Assembly (NCBI RefSeq): GCF_000522505.1
Contig: NZ_AZMV01000002.1
Location: 177-64,176 of the forward strand
Source of the DNA: Bifidobacterium moukalabense DSM 27321
GTDB taxonomy: Bacteria; Actinomycetota; Actinomycetes; Actinomycetales; Bifidobacteriaceae
Length of the DNA stretch: 64,000 bases
Reading direction: 5' to 3'
The translations under genes and the position numbers were made by a program. The notes below the pieces were generated by a model. It saw only the letters and a program-made list of their open reading frames with translations. It did no database searches and was not told the origin of the DNA. This document shows positions 15,300-22,231 of the stretch, one piece after another. Numbering within the stretch: position 1 is the first letter of the stretch; each line of letters starts with the position of its first letter.

Positions 15300-16736
15300 T
15301 CAGCCTTCCATGTCCTCCAAGGCGACGCCCTTGGTCTCCTTCATGAACTTCAGCACGAAGAAGAAGGATACGAAGGCGAAGAAGGCGAACAGTCCGTAGA
15401 TCAGGCCGACGTTGAAGGCCAGCAGCACCGGGAAGCTCACCGTGACGATGAAGTTCGACGTGTACTGCACCGCGGTGCCGACGGACATGCCGGCCGAACG
15501 CATGGAGTTCGGGAACATTTCGGCGAGCATGGCCCACGAGACGGTGCCCCAGGTCAGGCCGAACGCGATCACGAATCCGTTGGCGCACACCAGTGCAAGC
15601 GGACCGGTGATGCCACCGAGCTGCGGAGCGCCGTTCACCAAGGGCGCGGTGCCGAAGAGCAGCGCCAGGCCGCCCTGGGTGATCACCATGCCGATGGAGC
15701 CGGCCAGCAGCATCGGACGGCGGCCGACGCGGTCGATCAGGAACGTGCCGCCGATGGTCGCGGCGATGTTGATCAATGAGGTGATGGCGGTGATGGTGAA
15801 GGAGTCCTTCTCGGTGAAGCCGACCGCACCCCACAGGGTGTTGGAGTAGTAGAAGATGACGTTGATGCCGGTGAACTGGTTGAGGATCATGAACCCAATG
15901 GCCACCCATACGATCGGCTTCAGGCGGCCGGCCGGAGTGATGAGGTCGCGGAACGACGGCCTGTGGTCGATGCCGATGGAGTAGCGGATGCGCCCGATCT
16001 GATCGGGGATCGGTGCCGGGTCGATGCTGATGCGGCTCAGCACGGCGGCCGCCTCCTCATCGCGATGTTGCGCCACCAGATAGCGCGGCGATTCGGGGAT
16101 GGTCATGGCCAGCAGGAAGTACAGCACGGACGGCACGGCCATGCACAGGAACATCCACTGCCAGGTTTCGAGCGGTCCCATGGGCACGCTGGCGCCGCCG
16201 GAGATGTGCACGAGCAACGCGTTGACGAGCAGTGAGATGAAGATGCCGATGACGATGCCGAGCTGCTGGAACGCTCCGAGCACGCCACGCTCGTCGGTAG
16301 GCGCGATTTCCGCGATGTACACGGGTGCGACCATGGCCGCGACACCTGCCGCGAAGCCACCGAGTACGCGGAAGATGACCAGCACGATGATGTTCGGCAC
16401 GATCGCGCAGCCGATCGCGCAGATCAGAAACAGTACGGCGGCGATTTTCATCATCGGCACGCGGCCGATCCTGTCGGCGATCCGGCCGGCGAGCAATGCG
16501 CCGATGCCGCCGGAGATCAACGCGGAGCCGACGGCGAGGCCGAGCAGGGCGTCGCCTGTGGCGAATTCGGTTTTGATCGCATTGGTGGCGCCATTGATCA
16601 CGGCGGAATCATACCCGTAGAGCAGGCCGCCAAGCGCCGCGATCAGCGCGAGACGACGGGCCACGGATCTGCGGGACTTGATGGTCGACTCGCTCAGGGC
16701 GGCCGGTTCAGCCGCATTCGCTTCAGCTGAAGACAT
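15300..16736 (-). CDS. MFS sugar porter (proton-coupled sugar uptake)
   Basis: A 478-residue transporter of the sugar porter family (XylE/GlcP/AraE type) with 12 helices. It shows LGGLLYGYDSAVINGA in helix 1, GRIADRIGRVPMM in loop 2-3, the PESPRYL motif after helix 6 and KETKG near the C-terminus. The start at 16736 is preceded by GGAAGAAGGA. It is the last gene of the leftward part of the rare-sugar locus, about 170 bases after the DUF4432 gene. It could import the sugar that the cupin isomerase and PfkB kinase then process. The family carries hexoses and pentoses, and which one is used here cannot be read from sequence. Confidence 0.9.
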   Translation of the reverse strand: MSSAEANAAEPAALSESTIKSRRSVARRLALIAALGGLLYGYDSAVINGATNAIKTEFATGDALLGLAVGSALISGGIGALLAGRIADRIGRVPMMKIAAVLFLICAIGCAIVPNIIVLVIFRVLGGFAAGVAAMVAPVYIAEIAPTDERGVLGAFQQLGIVIGIFISLLVNALLVHISGGASVPMGPLETWQWMFLCMAVPSVLYFLLAMTIPESPRYLVAQHRDEEAAAVLSRISIDPAPIPDQIGRIRYSIGIDHRPSFRDLITPAGRLKPIVWVAIGFMILNQFTGINVIFYYSNTLWGAVGFTEKDSFTITAITSLINIAATIGGTFLIDRVGRRPMLLAGSIGMVITQGGLALLFGTAPLVNGAPQLGGITGPLALVCANGFVIAFGLTWGTVSWAMLAEMFPNSMRSAGMSVGTAVQYTSNFIVTVSFPVLLAFNVGLIYGLFAFFAFVSFFFVLKFMKETKGVALEDMEG

Positions 16737-16903
16737 GATAAGGTCCTTCTTCCTTGAAAGATGGTGAATTGTATGGGAAATAGGTCCCTCTCGCCAAGAA
16801 TAGGGAGGGATGCCGGCCCGAGCGGGTATCCGGAGTTCAAACGGAGAAATCGGAGAGATCCAAATCCGTTCGGACCGGCAGGCATTGGCGGCGTGGCCTA
16901 CCG

Positions 16904-17971
16904 CTATGCGAGGAGTGCGTCGCGACGGGCCAGCAGCGCATCGATGGCTTCGGCGCCGTCGAGTACGGTGAAGGTGACGGTCTTGCGTTCGCAGGATTGC
17001 GCGGCGAGCGTATGCAGATTGCCACGTTCCTCATGCCAGCCGCGTCCGTACACCTTGGAATTCGAAGGTTCGAGACCGACCACATAGTCGCCGGAACCCA
17101 TCGACTTCCATTCCATGAAGTGCGGGAAGTCGGCCACGTTGAAGTCGATGACCACGCCCAGGCCGAGTTCGCGGTTGACGATTCCGGCGAAGCTTCCGCC
17201 GTCCGCGTCGGCCGCCAGCTCGTGGATGTACACGCTTTCCGGCTTGTTGGCCTCGGGAGCGCCGATCTCGTTCCACGGCGTGGTGTCGGCCGCGGTGGTT
17301 TCGTCACGCGGGGTCGCGCCACGGCTCGGAATGACCACTTGCGCGCCTTCGGCCAGCAACGGCCAACCAAAGTTGCAGTGGTACATCCACATGAGCGGCT
17401 CCTCACGGAACGACTCGTTGGCCACCTCATCCTCGACCGTGATCGACGGCCTGCCGTACACGGAACGGATGCGGCGGCGCAGCACCATGTTTTCACCGAA
17501 CAGTTCCGCCTCACGCATTTCACCGGACACCTCGAGCACATAATCGTCGCCATCCCAGTAGGCGTCGGAGCTCACATGTTCGGCCGGCGTGGTGCGGATA
17601 CGGCCATGCATCGGGTAGTCGCCGGCCGGGTACCGCGAACCTTCCGGCGTGGTGTACGGGCCGCAGATGTTCTCGAAACCGCAGGTGAAGAACAGGCCTC
17701 CCATGATGGAACGCAGCGCCTCCTGTCCGTTGGTGTCGAACTGGTTGCGGCCGTTCAGCCCCGGCTTCGACAGGAAGGTGAGATTCTCGCCCCTGTACTC
17801 GAACAGCGCCACGTCAAGGGCCTTGTCGGCCATCGACATGAAACGCAGTGGCCCGTTCTTGACTTCGACCGCCTTCAGGCCGTGCGTGCGGCCTTCCTGG
17901 TATTCGATCGGACGAACGTAGGCGGCTTGCTGCATGCTGCCGACGTGGGCGAGCATATCGGAACGCTTCAT
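16904..17971 (-). CDS. DUF4432 protein, aldose-1-epimerase-like fold
   Basis: A 355-residue cytoplasmic protein. Its family (DUF4432) is related to galactose mutarotase and usually sits in sugar operons. Typical features are MADKALDVALFEYRG, GGLFFTCGFENICGP, YPMHGRIRTTPAEH with a conserved His, and MWMYHCNFGWPLL. I chose Met at 17971 (MKRSDMLAHVG) because GGAGG lies just upstream and it starts 1 base after the kinase stop, implying translational coupling; a start at 18058 would overlap the kinase by 86 bases. The role is probably interconversion of sugar anomers or epimers in the pathway. The exact reaction is unknown. Confidence 0.8.
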   Translation of the reverse strand: MKRSDMLAHVGSMQQAAYVRPIEYQEGRTHGLKAVEVKNGPLRFMSMADKALDVALFEYRGENLTFLSKPGLNGRNQFDTNGQEALRSIMGGLFFTCGFENICGPYTTPEGSRYPAGDYPMHGRIRTTPAEHVSSDAYWDGDDYVLEVSGEMREAELFGENMVLRRRIRSVYGRPSITVEDEVANESFREEPLMWMYHCNFGWPLLAEGAQVVIPSRGATPRDETTAADTTPWNEIGAPEANKPESVYIHELAADADGGSFAGIVNRELGLGVVIDFNVADFPHFMEWKSMGSGDYVVGLEPSNSKVYGRGWHEERGNLHTLAAQSCERKTVTFTVLDGAEAIDALLARRDALLA

Positions 17972-17972
17972 C

Positions 17973-18875
17973 TCAATCCTCCCGCAGTTCCGCCGGGTAT
18001 TCCGGCCATGCACCCTGCTGGGTGCATACGAACGCCGAAACCTCGACCGCACGTTCATGGGCGGCGCGCAGGCTGAATCCGCGCAACCAGTATGCGAGGA
18101 ACGCCCCGGAGAAGGAATCGCCGGCGCCGACGGTGTCGGCGACCTCGACCTTCGGCGTCGGCAGCATCGAGATGGTCTCGTCGTCCATCACCAGACTGTA
18201 GGAGTCGCCGGCGGTGAGAATCACCACGTCGAGATCGAACATCTCCTTGATGGCCTTGACGCATTCGGTTTGCGACGGCACCTTGAACTCCGGTTCCTCG
18301 ATGCCGAAGAGCCGCGCCACGATCGGCAGCTCCTCGTCGTTGATCTTGAGAATCGTCGCACCGTTCAGCATGCGTTCGAGCACGTCGTGGTCGGCAAAGC
18401 CGGAACGGATGTTGATGTCGAAGAAACGCACGGTGTCGGGTCCGGCGGCATCGATCATCGCGTAGATCGCGTCGCGCGTGCCGTGTGGTTCGCGGGCCGC
18501 GATGCTGCCGTAGCAGATGGCGTCGGCGCTCTCGACCAGCTCGCGTACCTGGTCGGTGAAGGCGATGTGGTCCCACGCACGATCGCGCACCACGTCATAG
18601 GAGGGAATGCCGTTCTCGTCCAGGGAGACGGCGGTGATTCCGGTTGCGTATTCGTTGACCTGCGCGGCCACGTTGACGCCACGTTCGGTGAGCAGCTGCA
18701 CCAGTTCGCGGCCGAGTTCGTCGTCACCGACCGCGGTGACCGCGGTGGCCTCCACACCGTTCTGTGCGGCGTGGTAGACGAAGTTGGCCGGTGCGCCGCC
18801 GGGTTTCTTGCCGTCGGGAAGCATGTCCCACAGCAGTTCGCCCATGGTAAGCACGGATTTGGATTGCGCGTTCAT
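17973..18875 (-). CDS. PfkB-family sugar kinase (fructokinase-like)
   Basis: A 300-residue ribokinase-fold kinase. It has MGELLWDMLPDGKKPGGAPAN at the N-terminus (sugar-binding GGAPAN) and the ATP/anion-hole motif DTVGAGDSFSGAF with the catalytic Asp near residue 252. The best family match by eye is bacterial fructokinase, but other ketohexoses are possible. It lies between the isomerase (85 bases upstream) and the DUF4432 gene (start 1 base after its stop). In this context it should phosphorylate the ketose made by the cupin isomerase, probably at O6, giving the substrate for the AlsE-like or HxlB-like enzymes encoded on the other strand. That order is inferred. Confidence 0.88.
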   Translation of the reverse strand: MNAQSKSVLTMGELLWDMLPDGKKPGGAPANFVYHAAQNGVEATAVTAVGDDELGRELVQLLTERGVNVAAQVNEYATGITAVSLDENGIPSYDVVRDRAWDHIAFTDQVRELVESADAICYGSIAAREPHGTRDAIYAMIDAAGPDTVRFFDINIRSGFADHDVLERMLNGATILKINDEELPIVARLFGIEEPEFKVPSQTECVKAIKEMFDLDVVILTAGDSYSLVMDDETISMLPTPKVEVADTVGAGDSFSGAFLAYWLRGFSLRAAHERAVEVSAFVCTQQGAWPEYPAELRED

Positions 18876-18959
18876 TGCGAATGTCCTTGTTTTCGGGTGA
18901 GTTTGGCCAGAGGTACGGCAGTACGGCCGTACCTCCGCAGTGATGATGGGGAAAGAATC

Positions 18960-19649
18960 TCAGTCTTCCTTGGCTGCCGGATACTCGTTGCAGAGCAGAC
19001 GGTAGGCGGACTCGTCCTCTTCGATCTTCGGGAAGCGGCCAAGCGGCGCGAAGAAGCGGTTGTCGGTGTTGTCGTCGTTGCACATGGACACCTCGCCGAC
19101 CAGCGTCGGGACGGAGTCCTCCTTGATGTAGTACTCGTGGTAGGTGTACGGGTAGAAGGTCAGGGACTCGCCTTCGTTGAGCTCGATCGGCTCTCCGGCC
19201 GGCACATAGTAGCGGCGGCCGTCGCGGCACACCAGCACCGGGGTGTCGAGCTTCTCCTCGGTCTCCGGGTCGGCGTTGTACAGGTGGAACACCGCGGTGC
19301 CGCCGCCGCGCACGATGATGTCTTCCATCTTGTTCCAGTGGAAGTGCATCGGCGAGACCTGGCCCGGCATGCTCATCATGATCTTCTCGGCGTACACCTT
19401 GGTGTATTTCGGGTCCTTCACGTTGCCGTTGCGCAGGGTGATCAATGCCAGGCCCTTGTGTTCGAAATCGCCTTCGCCGTAATCGGTGATATCCCATCCC
19501 AGGGCGTTATCGCGGACCTCATCCCACTCATGCCCCTTTTCGGCCCATTCCTCCGGGGTGAAGCTCAGATACGGCGGGATGCGGAACTTGTACTGGTCGA
19601 GCAGGGCTTCGAACTGCTTGATGACTGCATTGACTTCAGAACGCTTCAT
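18960..19649 (-). CDS. Cupin sugar isomerase, D-lyxose/D-mannose isomerase family
   Basis: A 229-residue protein from Met 19649 (MKRSEVNAVIKQF). An AAGGAG site lies 8 bases upstream; a longer frame to 20042 runs through the promoter and is rejected. It resembles D-lyxose ketol-isomerases: the metal-binding cupin motif is PMHFHWNKMEDI (His, His and Glu near residues 103-110), with a later His in YPYTYHEYY near 172. Family members convert D-lyxose to D-xylulose and D-mannose to D-fructose, some with other aldoses. It is the first gene of the leftward operon, transcribed from a promoter that overlaps the DeoR promoter, so the regulator probably controls both arms. Confidence 0.85.
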   Translation of the reverse strand: MKRSEVNAVIKQFEALLDQYKFRIPPYLSFTPEEWAEKGHEWDEVRDNALGWDITDYGEGDFEHKGLALITLRNGNVKDPKYTKVYAEKIMMSMPGQVSPMHFHWNKMEDIIVRGGGTAVFHLYNADPETEEKLDTPVLVCRDGRRYYVPAGEPIELNEGESLTFYPYTYHEYYIKEDSVPTLVGEVSMCNDDNTDNRFFAPLGRFPKIEEDESAYRLLCNEYPAAKED

Positions 19650-19974
19650 GGCGAAAACTCCTTTGTCATAAACTGCGACGTTTACGCGTCCGTTGTTGTT
19701 TACTTTCGATTGTTGCGTGTTTTTTCGTTTTCGAGCGGTTCGCCTTTCGGCGTGTCGTTCTCGACAACAAGCATTTTTCGATTGATTTCGTTTTACTTGC
19801 GATTTCTTTCGTTTTGCTTGTTGACAACAACATAACACAAGGTTACGATAGTTGTCAACACCAAAACGAAAGGAAACGAAATGAAATTTTCGCCATAACG
19901 ATAAGTATCGAAAAGCGATTGCTAAGATGGATGGCAGCATCCAGTCCGGCGGCATACAGCAAGGAGCCTGCACG
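19650..19974. promoter_or_regulatory. Divergent promoter region of the rare-sugar locus
   Basis: No gene; AT-rich. TTGACA at 19821-19826 and TACGAT at 19844-19849, 17 bases apart, make a strong rightward promoter. On the other strand TTGACA (19853-19858) with TTATGT (19830-19835) makes a leftward promoter that overlaps it. The two -35 boxes lie in an inverted repeat, GTTGACAAC (19820-19828) and GTTGTCAAC (19851-19859). TTTCG[A/T]TT-like words recur at 19704, 19723, 19776, 19786, 19808, and as the complement at 19865-19882. These are candidate DeoR sites. Confidence 0.7.
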
Positions 19975-20727
19975 ATGATGAAAGCCGAACGCCAAGAGCA
20001 GATCTTGAGGAGGATCGACGCCAACGGCCGCGTCGTCGTCACCGATTACGCCAAGGAGCTTGGCGTCACCGAAGCCACCTTGCGCAAGGACCTGCAGGAA
20101 CTGGACGACCGAGGACTGGTGCAACGCGTGCACGGAGGCGCGATGAAGCCGGATACCGAACTCAGCCGATTCGAGAACCGAGTCGATCTGGGCAAGGACG
20201 TCAAAATGAGGCTGGCAGCGGCGGCGATGGATGAGATCGCCGAGAACCGCGTCATCTTCATCGACGGCGGCTCCACCAACTATCTGGCCGCACAGGCGTT
20301 CCCACGCGACTACACGGGAACCATCATCACCAACAGCCCGGCCGTGGCCCTATGGATGTCCGACTACGACAATGTCGAGGTGAATATGCTCACCGGCACC
20401 ATTCACCATAAATCCAAGGAGACCGTCGGCTCGGCGGCACTGGCGATGCTGCAGCAGCTGCACTGCGACCTGGTGCTGCTCGGCGTCTCGTCGATCGACC
20501 CGTCGCACGGCATCACCACGCCATACCTGGAATCCGCCGAGACCAAGCGTGCGCTGATCAAAGCCGGAACCAAGGTGATGAGTCTGATCACCCCGGAGAA
20601 ATTCGGGCATGTCTCCACTTACAAAATCGCTGATTGCAACGCGCTGGACGTCATCGTGACGAAAGGCACTCCGGAGTGCGCCGACGCACTCATCGCCATG
20701 GGAGTCTCATTGCGCATCATCCGCTGA
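19975..20727 (+). CDS. DeoR-family repressor
   Basis: A 250-residue protein from ATG 19975, with AAGGAG eight bases upstream; an alternative ATG lies at 19978. The N-terminal winged helix reads RQEQILRRIDANGRVVVTDY and TEATLRKDLQELDDRGLVQR, followed by VHGGAM. The C-terminal DeoR sensor domain has IFIDGGSTNYLAAQ and related phospho-sugar-binding segments. DeoR proteins usually sense a phosphorylated sugar, which fits a locus that makes hexulose phosphates. It heads the rightward operon and probably represses both arms from the overlapping promoters. The palindrome TTGTCAACGATTGACAA before the next gene may be another of its sites. Confidence 0.9.
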   Translation: MMKAERQEQILRRIDANGRVVVTDYAKELGVTEATLRKDLQELDDRGLVQRVHGGAMKPDTELSRFENRVDLGKDVKMRLAAAAMDEIAENRVIFIDGGSTNYLAAQAFPRDYTGTIITNSPAVALWMSDYDNVEVNMLTGTIHHKSKETVGSAALAMLQQLHCDLVLLGVSSIDPSHGITTPYLESAETKRALIKAGTKVMSLITPEKFGHVSTYKIADCNALDVIVTKGTPECADALIAMGVSLRIIR

Positions 20728-20844
20728 TTCGCAAATCCCCTCGGATAATCCAGAACCGACCTCCCACCCATCCGAGATGCGGCAATGCCGCACCTCCGGG
20801 CAAGCACACCCAAAAACATCCCAAAGACAGCCATCAACGGACTT

Positions 20845-20861
20845 TTGTCAACGATTGACAA
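20845..20861. promoter_or_regulatory. Perfect 7-3-7 palindrome before the AlsE-like gene
   Basis: TTGTCAACGATTGACAA: two 7-base arms around a 3-base centre, directly before the AAGGAG ribosome site. The same half-site, GTTGACAA/TTGTCAAC, flanks the promoters at 19820-19859. A shared operator for the locus regulator is likely. Confidence 0.65.
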
Positions 20862-20874
20862 GGAGCACACCATC

Positions 20875-21582
20875 ATGACCGCACCATTCAGCGATCCGCA
20901 CTTCGCCATTTCGCTGTATTGCAGCGATTTCCGCAACCCCGCCGCACAGGTCGAGGTGTTGAACAACTACGCCGATTCCTACCATGTCGACATCATGGAC
21001 GGCCACTTCTCCCCCAGCATGGGCCTGTGCACCACCTGGATCGAGCAGATGATGCCACTGTGCTCGCTGCGCAAGGAAGTGCACATGATGGTCACCGACA
21101 TCGACCATTGGATCGACCAGCTGGTCGCCGCGGGAGCCACCATGCTGACCCCGCACGTCGAATCACTGGGCGCGCACGCCTTCCGCACGCTGCGCATCAT
21201 CCGGGAGAACGGCTGCGGCGCCGGCATCGCCGTCAACCCGCTCACCTCGTTCTCCGAAATGGAGAATCTGCTGGAACGCATCGACCTCGTGACCGTCATG
21301 ACGGTGGAGATCGGCTACTCCGGCGAACCGCTGATTCCCGAAACCCTGAACAAGATCGAACGTCTGGCGCAGTTCCGCGACGCGCACGGACTCAACTATG
21401 AGATCCAGATCGACGGTTCGTGCAATGAGAGGAACTTCAAGCGCATGCGCGAAGTCGGCGCCGACACGTTCGTCCTCGGCAACACCGGCATCTTCAAGCG
21501 CTCCCCCGACATCGAAGAGGCCTGGCACATGACCATGGCGGCCTACGAGGAATCCACCGGCGAAAAGGTCCGCATCCGCTGA
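20875..21582 (+). CDS. Ribulose-phosphate-3-epimerase family protein, D-allulose-6-phosphate epimerase-like
   Basis: A 235-residue TIM-barrel protein from ATG 20875, with AAGGAG upstream. It has the metal- and phosphate-binding motifs of the family: YHVDIMDGHF (His37, Asp39), EVHMMVTD (His70), VMTVEIGYSG, and YEIQIDGSCNERNF with the catalytic Asp near 180. The IDGSCN and VLGNTGIF segments resemble E. coli AlsE, which converts D-allulose-6-phosphate to fructose-6-phosphate, more than housekeeping Rpe. I considered 3-hexulose-6-phosphate synthase because of the HxlB-like neighbour, but the motifs do not fit. The product would enter the fructose-6-phosphate phosphoketolase route. Natural substrate is inferred. 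Confidence 0.82.
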   Translation: MTAPFSDPHFAISLYCSDFRNPAAQVEVLNNYADSYHVDIMDGHFSPSMGLCTTWIEQMMPLCSLRKEVHMMVTDIDHWIDQLVAAGATMLTPHVESLGAHAFRTLRIIRENGCGAGIAVNPLTSFSEMENLLERIDLVTVMTVEIGYSGEPLIPETLNKIERLAQFRDAHGLNYEIQIDGSCNERNFKRMREVGADTFVLGNTGIFKRSPDIEEAWHMTMAAYEESTGEKVRIR

Positions 21583-21664
21583 CCGGCCGTTCCATTCCGC
21601 AATCCGCCTCATCCCGCAATCCCAGATCACGCACATACACCACACATACGTAAAGGAAATCATC

Positions 21665-22231
21665 ATGACCACCGCAACCTCTTTCCGTGAATGCGAGCGC
21701 ATCATCGTCAACGAGCTGGCCGACGTGCTCGACAACGTCGACGAGACCCAGATCGACCGGCTGGTCGACATGATCACCGGCGCCCGCAAGGTGTTCTTCG
21801 TGGGCGTCGGCCGCGTCGAACTCGCCCTCGAGGCCATCGCCAAGCGCCTGGCACACCTTGGCATCGACACCGTGATGGTCGGCCAGATCACCGAGCCGGC
21901 CATCTGCGACAAGGACCTGCTGATCGTCGGTTCCGGCTCCGGAAAGACCGGCTTCCCGCTGTTCATCGCGGGCAAGGCCAAGTCGTTCGGCGCGAAGGTG
22001 GCACGCATCGGCATCGTCGAGGACTGCCCGATGAAGGAATATACCGACCTGTTCGTGCATGTGCCGGCCGCGGGCAAGCCGGGTTCGGGCACCAAGCCGA
22101 GCGAGCAGCCGATGACCAGCCTGTTCGAGCAGTCGTTGCTGCTGGTCGGCGACGCGATCGCCATGAGCCTGGTGCGCGGGCGGGGCATCGACCTCGACTC
22201 GCTATGGGAGTTCCACGCGAATCTCGAGTAG
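21665..22231 (+). CDS. SIS-domain isomerase, 6-phospho-3-hexuloisomerase (HxlB)-like
   Basis: A 188-residue single SIS-domain protein. It aligns end to end by eye with HxlB: the phosphosugar-binding segment LIVGSGSGKTG at residues 86-96, QPMTSLFEQSLLL, and the C-terminal HANLE motif. HxlB interconverts 3-hexulose-6-phosphate and fructose-6-phosphate. In most HxlB proteins the loop reads GSGSGET; here Lys94 replaces the Glu, which may alter substrate or activity. AAGGAA lies before the ATG. It is the last gene of the DeoR/AlsE-like operon. No 3-hexulose-6-phosphate synthase is present in the window, so a formaldehyde-fixing role is unlikely and a sugar-catabolic one is inferred. Confidence 0.85.
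   Translation: MTTATSFRECERIIVNELADVLDNVDETQIDRLVDMITGARKVFFVGVGRVELALEAIAKRLAHLGIDTVMVGQITEPAICDKDLLIVGSGSGKTGFPLFIAGKAKSFGAKVARIGIVEDCPMKEYTDLFVHVPAAGKPGSGTKPSEQPMTSLFEQSLLLVGDAIAMSLVRGRGIDLDSLWEFHANLE

Follow-up and report, generated by a model that had tools for sequence, protein, structure and literature searches.

A recurrent sugar-enzyme set in Bifidobacterium moukalabense, with an epimerase altered alike in two lineages, points to an undescribed sugar route

A divergent gene cluster of Bifidobacterium moukalabense DSM 27321 raises the question of which sugar its products handle together, and by what route. The cluster lies at positions 15300..22231 of a 64,000-nucleotide stretch of contig NZ_AZMV01000002.1 (the window, meaning the whole stretch analysed), where a sugar porter, a DUF4432 protein, a PfkB-family kinase and a D-lyxose/D-mannose-type cupin isomerase face a DeoR-family regulator, an epimerase of the ribulose-phosphate 3-epimerase (RPE)/AlsE family and a 6-phospho-3-hexuloisomerase-like SIS protein (hereafter, the hexuloisomerase). 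A sequence-only reading had described a divergent seven-gene locus for a rare sugar, and the locus proved real, intact and placed as described: each of the seven open reading frames has an ATG start and one terminal stop, and the layout is kept in four Bifidobacterium genomes. Pfam and NCBIfam profile searches also returned the same families as its names for all seven genes. The recurrence of this enzyme set, with one enzyme altered alike in two lineages, points to an undescribed sugar route.

The same reading had named a lack of co-occurrence in other genomes as grounds for abandoning it; we found that all four isomerase-bearing Bifidobacterium genomes hold the genes together, and that the five enzymes recur as a set in 52 of the best 80 loci from other genomes. 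Only 4 of 112 Bifidobacterium genomes have a member of the D-lyxose isomerase family, and each of these holds all seven genes in the same divergent layout. When six genes that flank the cluster were compared with the three other Bifidobacterium loci (L006, L007 and L009; L numbers are our own handles), none had a match above 32% identity, so the cassette sits at differing genomic sites. Because the layout is kept in all four genomes while the flanks differ, the grouping is not chance. In a sample of the phylum, an isomerase match was found in 9 of 396 genomes, at full length only in one besides the window's own. A contig scan across genomes yielded 473 stretches with 398 isomerase relatives, the best 80 of which were analysed as loci: one from B. 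oedipodis (DSM 109957), the rest mostly from Lachnospiraceae, other Clostridia and Synergistota. The 52 loci in which kinase, epimerase, hexuloisomerase and DUF4432 protein all lie within 7.5 kb of the isomerase are nearly all from Clostridia and Synergistota; these counts come from mechanical gene calls, some missing partners are contig ends, and some loci share one metagenome bin (L014/L015 and L073/L077). Upstream sequence exceeds 4.2 kb in 61 loci, 47 of which have all four partners; of the 62 loci with an epimerase, 60 also have the hexuloisomerase. The usual gene order elsewhere is PfkB, epimerase, hexuloisomerase, DUF4432, isomerase.

Identity between the window proteins and their counterparts outside Bifidobacterium varies with the enzyme: it is 65-75% for the isomerase (median 70%), with medians of 54% for the DUF4432 protein, 49% for the hexuloisomerase, 34% for the epimerase and 27% for the kinase. 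The kinase and epimerase in Bifidobacterium belong to lineages distinct from those in the clostridial loci, with different genes filling the same two predicted roles.

The epimerase belongs to PF00834 (Ribul_P_3_epim, 150.7 bits) and misses the cut-off of the AlsE model NF007266 (253.7 bits vs 271), which is still its best NCBIfam match. Among 21 background AlsE and RPE rows, the first place of the motif that follows the second strand is Val or Ala (21), the third is Asn (21), and the last position, after the sixth-strand loop, is Gln (20, the other row having Arg); from these rows we took Asn in VPN and Gln in GGQ to be the conserved, family-defining residues. The window epimerase has Ser and Glu instead. 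The clostridial and synergistotal cassette epimerases read Ser, Pro, Ser and Met after the second strand in 54, 54, 53 and 54 of 54 rows, with Glu after the sixth-strand loop in 54 of 54, and the same SPSM...E signature is found in all four Bifidobacterium cassette rows (the window, L006, L009 and L117, the last from the same genome as L009). Invariant throughout the alignment (A3) are the metal and acid-base residues H36, D38, H69 and D179, as well as the loop glycines G146, G149, G180 and G201. Section 3.1 of PMC9978339 assigns metal and acid-base functions to the two His and two Asp of RPE-type epimerases; the excerpts of that paper do not treat the roles of the residues altered in our epimerase and SIS protein.

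These shared changes do not follow the epimerase tree (39 rows, with 14 of the 54 clostridial and synergistotal rows kept). In it, the window epimerase is nested in the AlsE clade and groups with a second Bifidobacterium AlsE, an ordinary one with which it shares 49% identity. When the motif stretches were removed, the tree still split the Bifidobacterium from the clostridial epimerases, and a single clade was rejected by the approximately unbiased (AU) test for groups chosen after a first tree (p-AU 0.0115). By this measure, the SPSM...E motifs have converged in two separate epimerase lineages.

The hexuloisomerase passes the cut-off of the HxlB model TIGR03127 (172.6 bits vs 160), and it too is altered. 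The Ser of its GRS motif, which we took from 27 background rows as HxlB-defining (Ser in 24, Glu in 3), is Val in the window protein, and the motif reads GRV in all four Bifidobacterium rows. Of the 59 clostridial and synergistotal rows, 57 likewise have GRV, and the other two, with GRS, come from copies that lie outside the cassette, one beyond the ATP-binding cassette (ABC) genes of L047 and the other a second copy in L055, the cassette copy of which is GRV; L065 likewise has GRV in the cassette and GRS in a second copy. The cassette hexuloisomerase is, as its motifs have it, a member of an altered subfamily. Other Bifidobacterium loci (L166-L178 and L180-L182) carry ordinary HxlB-type proteins away from any lyxose isomerase, and those of L180-L182 have GRE for GRS.

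Both altered enzymes also occur in operons of other kinds. On five megaplasmids of Enterococcus raffinosus lies an epimerase with 97-100% identity to one of SPSM type, and SPSM was read in the three that we examined. In those three, it is directly followed by a GRV-type hexuloisomerase (the window protein is 65% identical to an E. raffinosus relative), a mannitol-1-phosphate 5-dehydrogenase, a phosphotransferase system (PTS) IIA protein and a mannitol PTS IICB; in one of these operons, the dehydrogenase (368.6 bits vs 356) and the PTS protein (639 vs 589) score over their cut-offs. A second operon on one plasmid joins a GRV hexuloisomerase to a ribokinase-like protein and a PTS IIC nearest the galactitol type (180.4 bits, below the cut-off of 542.2). 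Two records from Enterococcus plasmids (L198 and L208) have a galactitol-nearest PTS IIC, a LacI regulator, an epimerase and a ribokinase, with a hexuloisomerase alongside in L198 and none in L208. In Paraburkholderia graminis, an SPSM-type epimerase ends an operon of an ABC importer, a polyol dehydrogenase and a xylulokinase. The epimerase and hexuloisomerase are thus kept together across what look like aldose, hexitol and polyol feeds, and the PTS-linked pair should receive a phosphorylated sugar, since the PTS and mannitol-1-phosphate dehydrogenase deliver one.

What the pair would receive in the cassette depends on the enzymes upstream of it. The isomerase is in PF07385 (Lyx_isomer, 301.5 bits vs a cut-off of 20.8) and below the D-lyxose/D-mannose isomerase equivalog NF051472 (241.2 vs 350); its residues 1-222 align with 3kmh and 3mpb, and it keeps the MHFH..ED and YH blocks, which we take to have a metal role. 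The lyxose isomerase family favours a mannose-like C2 configuration, a preference shared by mannitol-1-phosphate dehydrogenase, and the operon of the related Escherichia coli O157 isomerase includes a ketose-bisphosphate aldolase (579 bits vs 406). Together, the C2 preference of the isomerase, the matching dehydrogenase and the O157 aldolase partner suggest that the isomerase product is a ketose other than fructose. The kinase (PF00294, PfkB, 136.1 bits) is far below the fructokinase model NF006957, still its top NCBIfam match (79.5 bits vs 450), with 5-dehydro-2-deoxygluconokinase as the runner-up (79.1); its nearest among five sequences compared are the other PfkB protein of its own genome (L103, 47.8% identity) and 2qhp, 'Fructokinase' (43.9%). 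Fructokinase is likewise the best match for two kinases from other loci, L010 (217 bits) and L058 (206 bits), both under the cut-off of 450. The DUF4432 protein (PF14486, 324.4 bits) has a single solved relative at E <=0.1, 3ty1, a 'hypothetical aldose 1-epimerase', and the His of HGR, the His of YHxN and the Glu of LEP are kept in 57 of 57 cassette rows; by the model of GalM, these residues presumably have a catalytic role. DUF4432 proteins occur in 20 of 112 Bifidobacterium genomes (broken in G044), 16 of them in settings without a lyxose isomerase. The sugar porter scores over the cut-off of TIGR00879 SP (311.0 bits vs 237.8), matches PF00083 Sugar_tr (317.8) and is about 80% identical in the other Bifidobacterium loci.

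A route that would use all of these enzymes turns on a simple constraint: a defect at C3 can be repaired by the epimerase alone, and C4 is reachable only with a partner that moves the carbonyl. We tentatively read the locus, at slightly under even confidence, as a catabolic cassette that moves horizontally and brings one rare hexose to fructose-6-phosphate by way of a C4 inversion carried out by the pair. The porter would import an aldose, which the DUF4432 protein would mutarotate; the lyxose-isomerase-family enzyme would convert this aldose, with its mannose-like C2, into a non-fructose 2-ketohexose (the best fit being D-talose to D-tagatose), and the fructokinase-lineage PfkB kinase would phosphorylate O6. 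The hexuloisomerase would then move the C2 carbonyl of the ketohexose-6-phosphate to C3; C4, by then adjacent to the carbonyl, would be inverted by the altered epimerase, after which the hexuloisomerase would return the carbonyl to C2, giving fructose-6-phosphate. The two enzymes thus probably rearrange a non-fructose ketohexose-6-phosphate, the C4 of which they would invert by way of a 3-keto intermediate. The best match is the D-talose/D-tagatose series, in which D-talose would give D-tagatose, or D-altritol (D-talitol) would give tagatose-6-phosphate.

Of note, hex-3-ulose-6-phosphate reproduces the C2-C5 end of ribulose-5-phosphate, its four carbons and phosphate, and carries an extra carbon on the carbonyl side. 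It would therefore fit an RPE-type pocket in which only the carbonyl end must change, and this mimicry could account for the pairing of the two enzymes, for the kept loop glycines and for the residues that differ in other parts of the pocket. A broader claim, that this is a two-enzyme 4-epimerase for tagatose-type sugars that dispenses with an aldolase, its epimerase role having arisen at least twice (in an RPE-like and in the AlsE lineage) with the same active-site changes, is one we put forward with less assurance, as a possibility worth entertaining.

D-allulose and D-allose had been among the candidates of the sequence-only reading, and catabolism of these sugars or of D-altrose would call on the same enzymes differently: isomerase and kinase would yield allulose-6-phosphate, an AlsE-like C3 inversion would give fructose-6-phosphate, and the hexuloisomerase would clear a side product. 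Such a use is what the nesting of the window epimerase in the AlsE clade, its best NCBIfam match to AlsE at 253.7 bits, and its kept metal ligands and both Asp acid/base residues would lead one to expect. However, the same genome has a separate locus (G000:C2, ~329-333 kb; L108, 6751-11348), in which an AlsE (315.7 bits, cut-off 271) adjoins an allose kinase (396.7, cut-off 253), both over their cut-offs, and which is a likely D-allose/D-allulose locus. L108 also carries an apparent ROK regulator and an apparent MFS transporter. The window epimerase, by comparison, is under the AlsE cut-off and shares its altered motifs with a non-AlsE lineage, and a near-constant hexuloisomerase partner, idle if C3 epimerisation alone were at work, is left without explanation. 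We consider this use of the locus unlikely and no longer favour these candidates. The earlier treatment of C3 epimerisation and 3-keto isomerisation as alternatives is probably also wrong, with both enzymes present in 60 of the 62 epimerase loci and in two further kinds of operon.

A generalist salvage locus, in which isomerase, epimerase and hexuloisomerase feed different sugars (mannose/lyxose, allulose, 3-hexulose) through one kinase to fructose-6-phosphate, gains from the fact that each enzyme family alone can yield fructose, xylulose or fructose-6-phosphate (the hexuloisomerase reaction being also given in excerpts of PMC8879981); yet it predicts neither convergent motifs nor an epimerase and a hexuloisomerase so closely paired across dissimilar operons, and we rate it as somewhat more doubtful still. 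The pair might instead shuffle carbonyls on free sugars ahead of the kinase, having lost phosphate recognition. The Ser to Val change falls at what is presumably a phosphate-contacting position of the SIS protein, and the Gln to Glu change lies beside an epimerase loop that we take to be the phosphate loop; yet the loop glycines are kept, and relatives of the pair adjoin a PTS and a mannitol-1-phosphate dehydrogenase, suppliers of phosphorylated sugars. The finding of these PTS-fed relatives made action on free sugars improbable in our view. Formaldehyde handling of the ribulose monophosphate (RuMP) type, suggested by the match of the hexuloisomerase to TIGR03127, merits hardly any credence: the partner genes are for sugar import and isomerisation, and no HxlA (hexulose-6-phosphate synthase) is found among the locus proteins, the rest of the genome not having been searched for it.

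Several observations weigh against C4 inversion by the pair, the reading that we prefer. The second Enterococcus operon pairs its altered hexuloisomerase with an ordinary epimerase, and in Paraburkholderia the hexuloisomerase, which diverges from the start of the operon, has the ordinary GRSG; the altered motifs of the two enzymes are, on this evidence, not strictly linked. The Paraburkholderia context is also one record, and the Enterococcus contexts are close kin. Among the 61 loci with sufficient upstream sequence, 2 (L015 and L054) consist of isomerase and kinase only, and 5 (L031, L039, L048, L063 and L073) have no partner at all. Long branches in the epimerase tree and the choice of groups call for some caution with the AU test. 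The best substrates of known lyxose isomerases are D-lyxose and D-mannose, and D-talose and D-altritol are rare sugars. Both the activity of the pathway and its sugar are predictions from sequence and gene context.

The arrangement of the locus (Table 1) would place both arms under the DeoR protein, acting from a shared promoter region. Predicted promoters at 19821-19849 (+) and 19858-19829 (-), both with TTGACA, lie inside the repeats, in a scan that found 3 sites vs 2.0 expected over the whole region, and this block is kept in the four Bifidobacterium genomes. At <=2 mismatches, the repeat pattern has 5 matches in the genome, 4 of them in this region, with 1 match for a reversed-pattern control. 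Because the matches concentrate in the shared intergenic region, a single local DeoR regulator for one pathway fits. We rejected operator sites elsewhere in the genome, as the one extra match equals the control count.

Table 1. Features of the seven-gene locus, in window positions (aa, amino acids)
Feature	Position	Strand	Remarks
Sugar porter family MFS transporter	15300..16736	-	478 aa, importer
DUF4432 aldose 1-epimerase-like protein	16904..17971	-	355 aa, putative mutarotase
PfkB-family sugar kinase, fructokinase lineage	17973..18875	-	300 aa
D-lyxose/D-mannose-type cupin isomerase	18960..19649	-	229 aa
Divergent promoter/operator region	19776..19886	.	back-to-back TTGACA promoters flanked by TTTCGTTTT-type repeats
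DeoR-family regulator	19975..20727	+	250 aa; PF00455 130.7 bits, PF08220 51.5
RPE/AlsE-family epimerase, altered motifs (SPSM, GYSGE)	20875..21582	+	235 aa
6-phospho-3-hexuloisomerase-like SIS protein, altered subfamily (GRV, TEP, FPL)	21665..22231	+	188 aa

The surroundings of the cassette differ outside Bifidobacterium. Often present as well are an ABC importer of the ribose type and a ROK regulator, both judged from sequence, with a search on the binding protein only; we tried to read the substrate from this clostridial binding protein, the nearest solved proteins of which are remote (best 69 bits), and inferred no ligand. A second block recurs beside the clostridial cassette (L016, L022, L030, L049, L060, L066, L071, L076, L086 and others), comprising members of a family that we call F9, a ROK-type protein, a further PfkB-like kinase and small proteins resembling a P-loop kinase and a glyoxalase. 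F9 lies inside the stretch in 18 loci, and the one member searched proved to be a class II aldolase. We considered and set aside glycoside hydrolases as neighbours of the clostridial cassettes, as a scan of 10 of the 131 flanking proteins gave one GH2 and no pattern; the remaining scanned proteins are sensor kinases, M56 proteins, a cell-wall amidase, a DNA polymerase, a topoisomerase, a pyruvate-formate-lyase-like enzyme and a protein with no family match. In another Bifidobacterium, the genome of which is without a lyxose isomerase, a DUF4432 gene adjoins part of a sugar porter gene and a fragment of a hexuloisomerase (L200; G074, ~7.8-10.1 kb), in what looks like a remnant of the cassette.

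If the proposed route is true, the names ribulose-phosphate 3-epimerase and 6-phospho-3-hexuloisomerase are wrong in dozens of the examined genomes, where these proteins would be parts of one sugar pathway, and the mis-assignment probably extends to many of the 398 genomes with a related isomerase. The pair would also offer a new means of inverting a sugar carbon, for making or breaking rare sugars, and SPSM...E plus GRV provides a sequence signature by which to find the pathway. The claim that no pathway with this gene set had been described held up, in that we found none in the open-licence literature; the excerpts of PMC5439011, PMC8879981 and PMC9727194, which name both enzymes, contain no such locus.

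Among known systems, the E. coli als operon for D-allose (AlsBAC, RpiB, AlsE, AlsK) resembles the locus in its epimerase family, its inferred end product and its logic of import, isomerisation, phosphorylation and epimerisation. It differs in having RpiB where the window has a cupin isomerase and a ROK kinase where the window has PfkB, and the hexuloisomerase and DUF4432 protein are found only in the window. The D-lyxose/D-mannose isomerase operon of E. coli O157, a relative of whose isomerase is solved as 3kmh and 3mpb, shares a PF07385 isomerase, a PfkB kinase and a sugar importer with the locus. There, however, the aldolase replaces epimerase, hexuloisomerase and DUF4432 protein, the importer is of the ABC type, and a sensor kinase and response regulator adjoin. 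In the E. coli O157:H7 record (L089), this operon lies between phnP/yjdP and yjcS, the site of the als operon in K-12 MG1655 (L107/L112). With the HxlA-HxlB pair of the RuMP pathway, the window shares a member of the HxlB family, albeit with an altered motif, no HxlA in the locus and an epimerase in the partner's place. The D-altritol/galactitol route of Agrobacterium uses a single tagatose-6-phosphate 4-epimerase of the GatZ/KbaZ type, and would thus solve with one enzyme the same C4 problem for which we propose a two-enzyme carbonyl shift in the window.

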